Shown one piece after another: positions 15,437-20,522 of a DNA stretch of 64,000 bases. Origin of the DNA: Pseudomonadota bacterium (GTDB lineage: Bacteria > Chloroflexota > UBA6077 > JAJPGT01). Both the position numbers and the translations under genes were made by a program. Location: contig JAJPGT010000041.1 of assembly GCA_021325655.1 (NCBI GenBank), positions 1-64,000 on the forward strand, read 5' to 3'. The number at the start of each line of letters is the position of its first letter. Within the stretch, counting starts at the first letter, position 1. A model generated the notes under the pieces. That model ran no database searches, was not told where the DNA came from, and saw nothing but the letters and a program-made list of their open reading frames with translations.

Positions 15437-17740
15437 TCACCCCGTGAGCGGAGCTGCAGCCCCGGTATCGGGGGCCAGAGCGGAGTCCCTATCCCGCTTC
15501 GCCGCCCCTGTGGCGATGATGTCGCGGTACACCTCGGCGGCGGGAGTGGCGACGCGCCGGAGGGCGGGGTCCGAGTCCAGCGCGACGTGGTAGAGGCCGA
15601 AGTCGTTGCTCGGGCCGAAGGGCAGCCCCCACTCGCGGTTAGAGGTGATACTCCAGCACAGGTAGCCGCTGACGGGCGCTCCGGCGCGGACCGCGCGCTG
15701 GACCTCGCGAACGTGCCGCCGCAGGTACTCGGCCCGCTCGACGCCGTCGGCCTGATCGACGGAGCCATTCTCGACGATCAGGATCGGCAGGCGCGGGAAC
15801 AGCTTGGCATAGTACCGCAGCATCCCGTACAGGGCGCCGGGCCAGACCGGGGCGCGGTCGAAGCGGCCGATGCTCGCCTCCAGCAGCGCCTGCAGCCGGT
15901 CGAGCCGCAGGGTGCTGATGCCCCAGTAGTAATCGAGGCCGACGAAGTCCTGCTGGCCGGCGCATCCGGGAGGGCAGAGCAGTTCGGGGAGCTTGCCGGC
16001 CATGCCGAGGTGCCACCAGTTGCTGGTAAGGCCGGTGGAGAGCACGCTGTACGCCTTCAGAAGCGGATCCAGGAAGCGGAGCAGCGAGCGAAGTAGGGGA
16101 ATGCGCTGCTGGGTAGTCGCCGGGACGAAGCGGACGCGCGCAGGATCGCCGAACAGCCGGCCGGCGATAGCGCGGGCCAGATCGATCTCCAGCCCGCGGA
16201 GCTCGCCCGTGCGTGGGTCTCGATAGCCGAAGCCCGGCACATCCTGCTTGACCGCTACCACCAGGCAACCGCGGTCCTGGATCCGGCGCAGCGCGGTGCC
16301 CTCCCTGGCGTGCGGCAACGGGCCAGCGGGTGCGCCAGGCGTTGTCCGCGCCGCGGCGGAGGACGCTTCCGGGCCCGCGTCCACGAGCGCCCGGCCGGTG
16401 GTCGGTGGTGGAGCGGGGACAGGAGGGCCGAGGTGCTCGGCGTAGCTCGCCGCCCAGGCCCCGGATGCTTTGAACTGCCGCACCGCTGCGTTCACCACGT
16501 CCAGCAGCTCGCCACTGCCCAGGGCAACCGCCGCGGCGTACGGCTCGTCCGTCAGCCGCTCGCCGAGCAGCCGGTAGCGGCCAGGGTGGGCGGCGACGAG
16601 GCCGCGCAGGATTACGTCGTCGGCCAGCAGCGCGTCGGCCCGCCCCGCCTCCAGCGCGACGAGCGCGGCGGGGTAGTCGTCCACCCGCAGCAGGCGGGCA
16701 GTCGGGAACAGGCGCGGCGCCTCGCGCTCGGCAGTGGACGTCTTCACCGCCGCCAGCGTCCCGCCGTCCAGGCGGGCCGCGCTGGCCAGCCCGCTGCCAG
16801 CAGGCACGAGCAGCATCTGGCCGGCGACATAGTAGGTGTCTGAGAAGGCGACCTGTCGGGCCCGCTCGGGCGTTCGGGTCAGCGTGGCGACGACCACGTC
16901 CACCGCGCCCCGCTCCAGCAGTGGGCGTTCGGCGAACCGCTGCCCTTGCTTCACCAGGTCGTCGCGCCGTCGAAGCCGGGTGACGTTCCAGTCGACCAGG
17001 CGCTGGAGCCAGACCGGCAGCCCGAGCAGCAGCGGGTTGGCCCCCACCTGTGCCTGCGGGCGGGCGCGCTTGATCTCCTGGCGCGCCAGTCGGTGCGCCT
17101 CGAACAGGTTGCGCATCAGCGCTCCGACCCGGTCGAGCTGCTGCTCCAGCGTCGCGCCGTCGGGTAGCCCCGGCGGGACGGCGTAGTTGCGCAGCCACCA
17201 GGGCTTCACGTAGCCGTAGACGAGCTGTGTCGGCTCGTTGAAGGTGATCCAGGTGCACACCTCGGACCCGAGCCGTCGAGCCGCTTCGCGCGCATAGTCG
17301 CGGAACCACTCGGGGAACGCCGGATCGGTCATCCCGCCGCGCTGCTCGATGTGTAGCGGCCAGGTGAAGTGGTGCAGGGTGGCGATCGGCTCCATCCCGG
17401 CGGCGCGGATCGCGGCCGCGACCTGGCGGTAGTGCTCGAACGCCGCCTCGTCGTACACCCCGGGGCTCGGCTCGACGCGGGACCAGGCGATGGAGAAGCG
17501 AAACGCGCGGCAGCCGAGCCGCTGCGCCAGGGCGATATCTTCGCCGTAGCGGCTCCAGAAATCGGTCGCGCGCCCGCGCGGCGTCAGCCCGCGCACCCGC
17601 TCCCAGACGTCCCACACGTCCTCCCGGGCCGGGTCATACGCTTCGCACTGGTGGTCGGCGGTGGCGACTCCGAAGAGGAACCTCGGCGGCAGCGGCGGCG
17701 GGGGCTTGCGGACGAGCGAAAGCAGCGTGCGCAGGCGCAT
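15437..17740 (-). CDS. GH1 beta-glucosidase-like enzyme with inserted, circularly permuted SBP_bac_3 domain
   Basis: 767 residues. Residues 20-~265 are the first half of a GH1 barrel: FLFGVATADHQCEAY, TLHHFTWP, and TFNEPT with acid/base E169. Residues 551-~735 are the second half: FLDPLLKAY, QDFVGLDYY, ILIVENG with nucleophile E657, and CWSITSNREWGLPFG. All key GH1 landmarks are present. Between them lie ~280 residues of an amino-acid-type periplasmic binding protein in swapped order: the C-terminal two-thirds first (270-440), a Pro/Ala linker (441-485), then the N-terminal third (487-550). No signal peptide is visible, so it is probably cytoplasmic. Stop of the upstream DUF362 gene is 15 nt away, indicating an operon. 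The substrate and the ligand are unknown. Confidence 0.85.
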   Translation of the reverse strand: MRLRTLLSLVRKPPPPLPPRFLFGVATADHQCEAYDPAREDVWDVWERVRGLTPRGRATDFWSRYGEDIALAQRLGCRAFRFSIAWSRVEPSPGVYDEAAFEHYRQVAAAIRAAGMEPIATLHHFTWPLHIEQRGGMTDPAFPEWFRDYAREAARRLGSEVCTWITFNEPTQLVYGYVKPWWLRNYAVPPGLPDGATLEQQLDRVGALMRNLFEAHRLARQEIKRARPQAQVGANPLLLGLPVWLQRLVDWNVTRLRRRDDLVKQGQRFAERPLLERGAVDVVVATLTRTPERARQVAFSDTYYVAGQMLLVPAGSGLASAARLDGGTLAAVKTSTAEREAPRLFPTARLLRVDDYPAALVALEAGRADALLADDVILRGLVAAHPGRYRLLGERLTDEPYAAAVALGSGELLDVVNAAVRQFKASGAWAASYAEHLGPPVPAPPPTTGRALVDAGPEASSAAARTTPGAPAGPLPHAREGTALRRIQDRGCLVVAVKQDVPGFGYRDPRTGELRGLEIDLARAIAGRLFGDPARVRFVPATTQQRIPLLRSLLRFLDPLLKAYSVLSTGLTSNWWHLGMAGKLPELLCPPGCAGQQDFVGLDYYWGISTLRLDRLQALLEASIGRFDRAPVWPGALYGMLRYYAKLFPRLPILIVENGSVDQADGVERAEYLRRHVREVQRAVRAGAPVSGYLCWSITSNREWGLPFGPSNDFGLYHVALDSDPALRRVATPAAEVYRDIIATGAAKRDRDSALAPDTGAAAPLTG
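16091..16933 (-). other. Inserted permuted SBP_bac_3 (amino-acid-binding) domain within the GH1 gene
   Basis: Protein residues 270-550. In ordinary family-3 binding proteins the order is V.V..D.PPFG..D..G...GFEVDLA, then the helix ending R.PLL.SG, then DVVVATLTRTPERA..V.FSD.YY. Here GAVDVVVATLTRTPERARQV and DTYYVAGQ come first, followed by the second-lobe motif DDYPAALVALEAGRADALLADD and the closing helix VNAAVRQFKASGAWAASYAEHLG. Only after a proline-rich linker does the true N-terminal lobe appear (GCLVVAVKQDVPGFGYRD, GLEIDLARAIAGRLFG, QQRIPLL). The junction falls in the helix between RIPLL and GAVDVVV. Confidence 0.8.
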
Positions 17741-17755: not shown

Positions 17756-18832
17756 TCAGGTGCGGTCCTCGAACAGCGGCTCGACCAGGTGGGTGAGCCG
17801 GTGGAGGACACGGAACAGCGGCGCGTCCGCCGCGACCGGTGGGAAGCGGGCATCCTGCTGGTTGGCGAAGGCGCGCGAGCAGAAGCGCTGCAGCCAGTAG
17901 ACCTCTTCCAGGGCGTCCAGCGCGGCGACGACGAAGGGGCGGATGTTGGTCCAGGGCTGCCAGGGGGTCATGTCGCCGTGGCGCGCGATGCGGAAGGTGC
18001 CCCAGCGTCCGAGCGCCTCGCGGATCACCGAGTTCTCGGTCGGGTTAAGGCCCATCTTCTCGCCCTGGACCCAGTCCAGCGCGACGACGTTCGCGCTGGC
18101 GAAGATCGTGCGGGTCAGGTTGGGGGTGGCGTCGCGGACGTGGCCCGAGAAGCCGTCCCCGCTCACCCAGGCATCCAGAAAGCCGAAGTGGACCGGGGCG
18201 GCCGCCAGGATCAGGATGCAGCACTGGTAGAACTCGCGCCCCTTGCCATGGTAGATCTTCATCTTGTCCCACGCCGGCAGGCAGCCGTAGACGTTCTTCA
18301 GGCAGCCGGTGTAGTAGCACTGCCAGTGCGTCTTGTTCTTCGCGAAGGAGATCCGGTAGTCGGCTTCCAGCCAGGTGCGTCCGATGGCGTGCCGCCCCAG
18401 CACCCCGCCATAGTCGAACGGCACCTGCTGCTCGGACAGGTCCTCGATCCGATACCCGTCGCCGGAGTAGCCGACCATCGCCGCTACCGCTCGCACGCTG
18501 CGCCCCTGGTAGGAGTAGTCGTAGACGTTGCGGGCCTCCACTATAGCCAGGTTGCGGAACCCCCGCGCCCGCAGCCCCGCGAGCAGGAATTCGACCAGCG
18601 CCGGGTGGGTATAGACCGGCGAAGGCTCCTGGCGCACCGCGGCGGTCATGAGGTTCGGCTTGACGGCGATCAGGAACTCCTCGCGCGGCTTGCCACTGCT
18701 GGCCAGCACCGCCTCGACGTTGGTGTAGAAGCCCGAGGCGTCGATCGCCCGCTGCAGCGCCTGGAGCTGATCGGTCCCCGTCTCCAGGTAGACCGCCGCA
18801 TCCTGCGAGTAGATCGGGTGCGTCTCGGGCAT
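17756..18832 (-). CDS. DUF362 family protein
   Basis: 358 residues. It carries the DUF362 landmarks IAVKPNLM (about residue 55), THPALVEFLLAGLRARG, a central ISFAKNKTHWQCYYTGCLKNVYGCLP and ALDWVQGEKMGLNP. DUF362 proteins are of poorly defined function, often redox- or iron-sulfur-associated. This copy has no ferredoxin-type CxxCxxC cluster motif. The ATG at 18830-18832 gives the normal family length. It lies 15 nt upstream of the GH1 chimera on the same strand, so the two are probably co-transcribed, and it is divergent from the epimerase at 19104. Confidence 0.8.
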   Translation of the reverse strand: MPETHPIYSQDAAVYLETGTDQLQALQRAIDASGFYTNVEAVLASSGKPREEFLIAVKPNLMTAAVRQEPSPVYTHPALVEFLLAGLRARGFRNLAIVEARNVYDYSYQGRSVRAVAAMVGYSGDGYRIEDLSEQQVPFDYGGVLGRHAIGRTWLEADYRISFAKNKTHWQCYYTGCLKNVYGCLPAWDKMKIYHGKGREFYQCCILILAAAPVHFGFLDAWVSGDGFSGHVRDATPNLTRTIFASANVVALDWVQGEKMGLNPTENSVIREALGRWGTFRIARHGDMTPWQPWTNIRPFVVAALDALEEVYWLQRFCSRAFANQQDARFPPVAADAPLFRVLHRLTHLVEPLFEDRT

Positions 18833-19103
18833 CGGAGGCTCACCTCAAGGCGCCGCGAGCGTCTCTGCAAGGCGTTAACGGGGCGGCCAGAGCCTCTTGC
18901 GGGAGCTCCTGCCCTGTCGGCTGCTGGCAGCCGCCCACGGCGCCGGGTCGCGGCCGAGTGTAGCAGGGAATCCTTAACCACGAAAGCCGCGTGCCTGCCG
19001 TTAATGTCATCGCGGCGACGGCGACAACGGGGCGGAAATGGAGTATCGTGGCGTGGACCGTGGCGTGGACCGTGGCGCGACACGCTTGGGAGGGGAGAGC
19101 AGC

Positions 19104-20522
19104 ATGGCGAAGGTCCTGGTTACCGGCGCAAACGGGTTCATCGGCTCGCACCTGGTCCGAGCGCTGCTCCAGCGGGGGCATGAGGTCCATTGCCTGGTGC
19201 GCCCTACCAGCGACCTCACCTCGCTGCGCGGGCTCCCCGTCACCCTCCACCTGGGCGACGTCCGCGAGCCGGAGACGCTGGCCGCCCCGCTGCGCGACGT
19301 GGAGTACGTCTACCACCTCGCCGCGCGGCTGATGGCGACGAGCCAGCAGGAGTTCGAGGCGAACAACGCTCAGGGGACGATCAACCTGCTCCGCTGCACC
19401 GAGCAGGCTGCCGCGCCGCGGCTGAAGCGATTCCTGTACGTCTCCAGCCAGGCCGCGGCGGGACCGGGTCGCAACGCCACCCCCAAGGACGAGACGGCGC
19501 CGCTGGAGCCGATCTCCTGGTACGGTGCCTCCAAGCAGCGGGCGGAGGAGGCGGTCCGCAGCTACGCTGGGCGGCTCCCCTTCACCATCGTCCGTCCGCC
19601 GTCCGTATATGGCGAGCGTGAGCGGGACATCAGCCAGACCTTCCCACTGGTCGAGCGTGGGCTGCAGCCAGTGCTGGGCGGCCCGCAGACCGCGCTCAAC
19701 ATGGTCTATGTCGAAGATCTGGTGCAGGGGATGATCGACGCGGCCGAGAGCGAGGAGACCGAGGGCCAGACCTACTTCCTGGTCCACCCGCAGCTCCTGC
19801 ATCCGCGGGACGTCGTCCAGACGGTCGCCCGGGCGCTGGGCAAGCCCAGAGGGGTCATGTTCCCGGTCCCGCTGTTTGCGTTGCGGCTGTTTGCCCCTGT
19901 GGCCGAGCTGCTGGCGGAGCTGACCCGCGAGCGGGCCCGTATCACCCGCGACAAGGTGCGCGAGATGAGCCAGAACTACTGGGTGGCCACCCCCGCGAAG
20001 GCGAAGCGAGACTTCGGCTGGGAGGCGCGCGCCGACCTGGAGCGCGGGATGAGCAAGACGATCGCCTTCTATCAGGAGCAGCAGCGCCAGCTCCGTGAGA
20101 TGCCGCTGGAGGACCCGCCACGGCTCTGGCTGAAGTATGTCGCCGTCGCCAGCGGCCTGGGGGCGCTGATCGAGGTCATCTCGAGGCTCGGGCGGTTCTA
20201 CACCTTCACCCCGCGCTGGGCGGTGTTCGGGGTGATCTTTGGCGGCTTCGGGCTGTCGCTCGGATCGGTCGCCTACCTGCTCCGCACCCAGGGCGATTTC
20301 CAGCAGTTCACCGCCGGCACCATCGGGGCCGGGGCGGCGGAGACGCTCAACGACCTGGGGCTGCTGCCCGGGGTGAGCTGGGAGTTCGCCCCCGGCTGGC
20401 CACTGGGGATCCGCAACGGGATGCTGCGCTCCTTCCTGCTCGGCACCGCCGGCGGAGGCTTCGTGCTGGTCGTCAACGCCGCCATGCGCGCGCTCTACGA
20501 GCGCCGCTTGCGCTTCGGCTGA
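19104..20522 (+). CDS. NAD-dependent epimerase/dehydratase (extended SDR) with membrane C-terminus
   Basis: 472 residues from ATG 19104, with AGGGGAG 7 nt upstream. The N-terminal ~320 residues are an extended SDR: VTGANGFIGSHLV (NAD-binding GxxGxxG), LGDVREPETL, YHLAAR, and YGASKQRAEE supplying the YxxxK pair. SVYGERERD lies in the substrate region. After residue ~340 the chain continues with two or three hydrophobic helices (around 355-400 and 445-465), so the enzyme is membrane-attached. It probably acts on a nucleotide-sugar, sterol or hopanoid-like substrate. A 12-bp repeat (GTGGCGTGGACC, two copies and a partial) lies upstream near 19047-19078. Confidence 0.8.
   Translation: MAKVLVTGANGFIGSHLVRALLQRGHEVHCLVRPTSDLTSLRGLPVTLHLGDVREPETLAAPLRDVEYVYHLAARLMATSQQEFEANNAQGTINLLRCTEQAAAPRLKRFLYVSSQAAAGPGRNATPKDETAPLEPISWYGASKQRAEEAVRSYAGRLPFTIVRPPSVYGERERDISQTFPLVERGLQPVLGGPQTALNMVYVEDLVQGMIDAAESEETEGQTYFLVHPQLLHPRDVVQTVARALGKPRGVMFPVPLFALRLFAPVAELLAELTRERARITRDKVREMSQNYWVATPAKAKRDFGWEARADLERGMSKTIAFYQEQQRQLREMPLEDPPRLWLKYVAVASGLGALIEVISRLGRFYTFTPRWAVFGVIFGGFGLSLGSVAYLLRTQGDFQQFTAGTIGAGAAETLNDLGLLPGVSWEFAPGWPLGIRNGMLRSFLLGTAGGGFVLVVNAAMRALYERRLRFG

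Follow-up and report, generated by a model that had tools for sequence, protein, structure and literature searches.

We questioned whether a GH1 glycosidase gene that is interrupted by a permuted amino-acid-binding protein (SBP), found in the 64,000-nucleotide stretch of DNA analysed here (the window), encodes a natural ligand-controlled enzyme. Protein engineers nest permuted domains inside each other to obtain metabolite switches, and to our knowledge few natural examples of such switches are known. The parts of the gene are given in Table 1.

Table 1. Coordinates of the fusion gene, its parts and its upstream neighbour within the window
Feature	Position	Strand	Basis or remark
Whole gene: GH1 with inserted circularly permuted SBP, 767 aa	15437..17740	minus	ATG at 17740, stop 15437-15439; Pfam, AF2
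GH1 N-terminal half, residues 1-270, barrel strands 1-5	16931..17740	minus	Pfam; DSSP on AF2 model
Codon of E169, GH1 acid/base (TFNEP)	17234..17236	minus	Invariant in 74/74 full fusions and 7/7 insert-free
SBP C-terminal two-thirds, in first place, residues 272-438	16427..16927	minus	Pfam profile 52-131; re-ordered match
SBP lobe 2, about residues 304-398; part missing in several Eremiobacterota lineages	16547..16831	minus	Alignment
Codon of R293, expected binder of ligand alpha-carboxylate	16862..16864	minus	Alignment; role from general knowledge
Codon of D374, expected binder of ligand alpha-amino group	16619..16621	minus	Alignment; role from general knowledge
Pro/Ala/Thr-rich linker from old SBP C-terminus to old N-terminus, residues 439-480	16301..16426	minus	Sequence; pLDDT <50 at 457-462
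SBP N-terminal third, in second place, residues 481-550, last residues RIPLL	16091..16300	minus	Pfam; re-ordered match
GH1 C-terminal half, residues 551-767, strands 6-8	15440..16090	minus	Pfam; DSSP on AF2 model
Codon of E657, GH1 nucleophile (VENG)	15770..15772	minus	Invariant in 74/74 full, 9/9 reduced and 7/7 insert-free
DUF362-domain gene, possible operon partner	17756..18832	minus	Pfam PF04015, 8.8e-28; 15 nt upstream of fusion gene

The enzyme part was assessed with Pfam and with an AlphaFold2 (AF2) model. Glyco_hydro_1 (PF00232) matched in two stretches, one on either side of the insert (5.6e-50, 170.5 bits against a gathering score of 22.6; best stretch at residues 17-234), and the model contains a (beta/alpha)8 barrel with its eight strands in order (22-26, 79-83, 117-123, 163-168, 231-235, 600-604, 653-658 and 690-696 by DSSP). 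E169 directly follows the fourth of these strands and E657 lies inside the seventh; both catalytic glutamates are invariant in the 74 full-length fusions compared, in agreement with a preliminary description of the locus as a complete GH1 enzyme. The barrel fold, the NEP acid/base and ENG nucleophile glutamates and the residues that we take to form the sugar site (Q31, H124, N168, E703 and W704) are shared with GH1 beta-glucosidases such as those of Thermotoga maritima and Streptomyces (PF00232, TIGR03356). The fusion differs from these enzymes in the large SBP insert between strands 5 and 6, in a distinctive NWWxLGxxGxLP...LCP segment of its own, and in a score against the beta-glucosidase equivalog model TIGR03356 (188.2 bits) that is far under the curated cut-off of 478.5. 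The predicted product is probably a GH1 beta-glycosidase or transglycosidase.

The insert matched SBP_bac_3 (PF00497), also in two stretches (2.3e-23, 82.9 bits against a gathering score of 26.4) and in reversed order, with the C-terminal part of the profile (52-131) at residues 273-438, ahead of the N-terminal part. The standard order of parts is absent from the window protein, and a single stretch appears only after re-ordering: with the insert put back in standard order (481-550, then 276-438), residues 5-228 of 233 matched amino-acid-binding proteins of the PDB without interruption, the best being 5eyf (1.9e-43, 152 bits), which is annotated as a glutamate-type binding protein. The nearest solved relatives include glutamate-, glutamine- and other amino-acid-type proteins. 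Across the seam, RIPLL/ERGAVDVV aligns without gaps with the native RIPLLKNGNIDAI, and the longer RIPLL/ERGAVDVVVAT does so with RIPLLKNGNIDAIIAT of 5eyf. Judged by these matches, the insert is a clean circular permutation of a family-3 SBP whose N-terminal third has moved behind its C-terminal two-thirds, as had been proposed. Both lobes, the full-length match after re-ordering and, in the window's group, the Arg/Asp/Thr ligand-site residues are shared with family-3 (type II) amino-acid-binding proteins (5eyf, GlnH, PF00497). In contrast to these, the insert is circularly permuted, sits inside an enzyme and has no signal peptide or lipoprotein anchor apparent on inspection of the window protein's sequence. 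Family-3 amino-acid-binding proteins normally sit outside the cell membrane; the fusion protein is probably cytoplasmic.

The motif RPLL is present at both junctions of the window protein and had been read as the scar of a duplication followed by trimming. This reading did not survive comparison with the 83 insert-bearing proteins, in which P273 occurs in 6 and R272 in 28. Their first junction conserves the pattern [ILV][LV][ED]xGxVD and their second R[LI]xxxRS; ahead of [ED]xGxVD, the first has only a short hydrophobic pair in common, an overlap so short that it gives a duplication history no support. By this comparison the RPLL repeat is probably due to chance rather than ancestral. GC content is similar in the N-terminal half of GH1 (0.72) and in the two SBP parts (0.75 and 0.70), so composition carries no mark of recent insertion. 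SBPs encoded in the window's own genome are only 30-31% identical to the insert and the nearest full-length free-standing SBP found only 39% (genome G1376); thus, no donor was identified among the SBPs compared.

The model of the whole window protein, built from an alignment of 65 relatives, suggests a compact, confidently predicted fold (pLDDT 90.6, pTM 0.90, with confidence in relative domain placement judged from pTM alone), and pLDDT fell below 50 only in part of the linker (457-462) and in the C-terminal tail. DSSP on this model places the insert between strands 5 (231-235) and 6 (600-604), where it had been located from sequence, flanked by helices at 259-270 and 553-567. In a fold search of the PDB, the top 50 matches were all GH1-type enzymes and included no SBP structure, so the SBP fold rests on the sequence matches and predicted secondary structure.

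The fusion recurs in four bacterial phyla. A contig scan with one genome per species yielded 39 relatives, distributed over Nostocales and other cyanobacteria, Chloroflexota, Eremiobacterota and Verrucomicrobiota; most are full fusions, with identities of 41-60%. Strong matches were found in 8 of 400 genomes surveyed in the window's own phylum, Chloroflexota (fusions and insert-free proteins mixed), 2 of 339 cyanobacterial genomes drawn, 8 of 388 in Verrucomicrobiota, 1 of 111 in Deinococcota (insert-free) and 52 of 149 in the phylum holding Eremiobacterota. The final alignment held 90 sequences: 74 with full inserts including the window protein (243-343 aa between the flanking columns), nine reduced (143-190 aa) and seven insert-free (25-77 aa). 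One genome of the Eremiobacterota phylum (G1291) carries two different fusion paralogs (L096 and L124), and in Westiellopsis (L030) and one member of Verrucomicrobiota (L038) the fusion gene extends over two frames, through a frameshift or a sequencing error. No match to a plasmid was found in PLSDB.

The window genome is a 111-contig assembly with an estimated contamination of 7.81%, and an assembly chimera, a gene-calling error or a decaying pseudogene could in principle create such a gene. However, the gene is one open frame with invariant catalytic residues, and the full layout is common to 73 aligned relatives from Chloroflexota, cyanobacteria (mainly Nostocales), Verrucomicrobiota and Eremiobacterota, including the named strains Fischerella PCC 9431, Chlorogloeopsis PCC 6912 and Haloferula BvORR071. 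Because this layout recurs in four phyla, in many assemblies made independently, misassembly, which the preliminary description had named as a way for its reading to fail, is ruled out, and any artefact is extremely improbable. The same design in four phyla implies that the architecture, a GH1 enzyme with a permuted SBP insert, is real and old, and of this we are nearly certain.

We assessed whether the insert retains the means to bind a ligand. In type-II amino-acid SBPs, an Arg in the TxxER region binds the carboxylate and an Asp of lobe 2 the amino group, with Thr/Ser assisting. The window protein has the canonical residues R293, D374, T288 and T336. R293 is conserved in 18/18 cyanobacterial, 5/5 Chloroflexota and 39/39 Eremiobacterota-group full-insert rows, and is replaced by D, S or N in 10/10 rows of the main Verrucomicrobiota group. 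D374 occurs in 18/18 cyanobacterial, 4/5 Chloroflexota and 35/39 Eremiobacterota-group rows; T336 in 18/18 cyanobacterial and 5/5 Chloroflexota rows, having been lost in Eremiobacterota; and T or S at position 288 in all 23 rows of cyanobacteria and Chloroflexota. Proteins of the window type are thus predicted, with a good measure of confidence, to bind an amino acid, and our best guess is a glutamate-like ligand, since the closest solved protein carries a glutamate-type annotation. An allosteric switch for a different ligand, such as a product or an aglycone with a carboxylate, would have the same anatomy, and the ligand class is predicted from few residues in a domain whose nearest solved relatives span several amino-acid types; this alternative is nevertheless improbable, as almost all of the best sequence matches are amino-acid SBPs. 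The window's group of cyanobacteria and Chloroflexota looks like one with a working sensor, and the other groups look like stages of decay or re-use of the insert. In Eremiobacterota and Verrucomicrobiota, which have lost part of the ligand site or else lobe 2, the insert is probably mainly structural.

The separate deletion of lobe 2, with lobe 1 kept, in several Eremiobacterota lineages is new in this analysis. In nine rows (L107-L113, L117 and L118) the stretch between ..SEPY and YAVAMALGS.., which corresponds to lobe 2, is gone and lobe 1 is kept, and the residual junctions differ among rows. Forcing seven of these rows into one clade cost 70 log-likelihood units (AU p 0.001; the group was chosen post hoc). 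This is strong, albeit post hoc, support for separate deletions in several lineages, with lobe 1 retained in each. In one lobe-2-less fusion (L109), the acid/base Glu is read as Ala, and the sequence also holds undetermined residues. Mean identity between cyanobacteria and Eremiobacterota was 54% in GH1, 41% in lobe 1 and 21% in lobe 2, the least conserved part. It thus seems that lobe 1 is what has become integrated into the enzyme, and lobe 2, which is needed for clamshell ligand binding, appears dispensable in these Eremiobacterota.

Such losses also favour a rival reading, in which the insert would be a structural or docking module (for stability, oligomerisation, or partner or membrane binding) that gates nothing and of which lobe 1 is the useful part. 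Lobe 1 stayed although lobe 2 was deleted more than once and diverged fastest; L108, although without lobe 2, gives a good predicted fold, lobe 1 included (pLDDT 86.2, pTM 0.88); and R293 is kept in 8 of 9 lobe-2-less proteins, so its conservation may be partly structural. A pure scaffold, however, needs none of the ligand-site residues, and in cyanobacteria and Chloroflexota R293, T/S288 and T336 are present in 23/23 rows and D374 in 22/23. We consider a purely structural role rather unlikely, albeit the most serious rival to gating.

Some relatives have the enzyme without the SBP. Seven were found (L036, L041, L043 and L138-L141), with identities in the GH1 N-terminal half of 64%, 61% and 55% for the first three, and in these rows the helix after strand 5 runs on to the segment before strand 6 with no SBP between. 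One genome (G233) holds both a fusion and an insert-free paralog. In a tree of the GH1 part, insert-free rows were intermixed with Chloroflexota fusions, and constraining them to one clade was not rejected (AU p 0.29). As the outgroup branch is very long, the root is unsure, and with a single insert-free clade not rejected, both an early gain followed by losses and a late gain are compatible with the tree.

The explanation that we find best is an amino-acid-gated, probably cytoplasmic GH1 beta-glycosidase in the window's group, with a structural remnant elsewhere, to which we assign a probability of roughly 0.5; for ligand control of the glycosidase as such, we infer similarly even odds. The helix-5 region of GH1 carries a type-II amino-acid-binding protein that is complete but re-cut, its new N- and C-termini adjoining each other on lobe 1. 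An alpha-amino acid ligand would close the SBP, whereupon lobe 1 would push on the helix at 553-567, which re-enters the barrel and leads to the near-invariant NWW segment and strand 6, and glycosidase activity would change, up or down. In favour of gating are the canonical site residues in the window protein and its cyanobacterial and Chloroflexota relatives, and the compact, confident predicted fold. Against a universal gate are the loss of the site Arg in one Verrucomicrobiota group, of T336 in Eremiobacterota and of lobe 2 in several lineages, and the relatives without any insert. The GH1 catalytic residues are also retained in lineages whose insert is halved or absent, which would make any gating dispensable. 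The broader proposal, a natural, ancient, cytoplasmic amino-acid-gated glycosidase across four phyla with a series from intact sensor through eroded site and half-deleted sensor to sensor-free enzyme, is more tentative and falls somewhat short of even odds.

Neighbouring genes give hints of a substrate. The DUF362 gene and the fusion gene are possibly co-transcribed, and beyond the former lies an epimerase-family gene on the plus strand (19038-20522), whose product is nearest to HpnA, a sugar epimerase associated with hopanoids (164.5 bits, below the cut-off of 367.65), and has an extra C-terminal part. No ABC permease was matched among the six neighbour genes scanned. Beside the Nostocales fusion of Desmonostoc (L006, 1-5779) are genes for a GMC oxidoreductase, an acetoacetate-decarboxylase-like protein and a patatin, and GMC oxidoreductase and patatin recur beside the insert-free GH1 gene of a Chloroflexota contig (L041, 3-4562), which hints at an association with GH1 rather than with the sensor. 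No neighbour was common to all relatives compared (generic SDR matches and reverse-strand shadow ORFs were left out of this comparison). The neighbours of L006 and L041 offer lipid-linked glycosides as the substrate, and possibly a lipid-glycoside pathway, as a lead only. SFR2, a plant galactolipid enzyme, also belongs to GH1.

Among known systems, ionotropic glutamate receptors are natural proteins that pair an effector with an amino-acid-sensing, split type-II binding domain (cf. PMC3483616). They differ from the fusion in that the effector is a membrane ion channel, the channel lies inside the binding domain, and there is no such permutation. Engineered xylanase-xylose-binding-protein chimeras unite a glycoside hydrolase and a binding protein by domain insertion, and ligand stimulates the enzyme, which shows that such coupling can work (PMC4896006, PMC4536891). 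These are man-made, with the enzyme inside the binding protein (the opposite nesting) and with other hydrolase and SBP families. We found no description of a natural GH1-SBP architecture in the literature searched, most subscription journals lying outside that scope. The fusion is probably a natural enzyme under ligand control, of a kind that until now has been familiar mainly from engineered proteins. If gated, the family would be a natural counterpart of engineered switches with built-in controls (no insert, lobe 1 only, eroded sites), and would open to experiment the general question of how binding domains acquire and later lose allosteric control. Such gating could also tie the turnover of glycosides or glycolipids to the level of an amino acid in Nostocales, Chloroflexota and Eremiobacterota.
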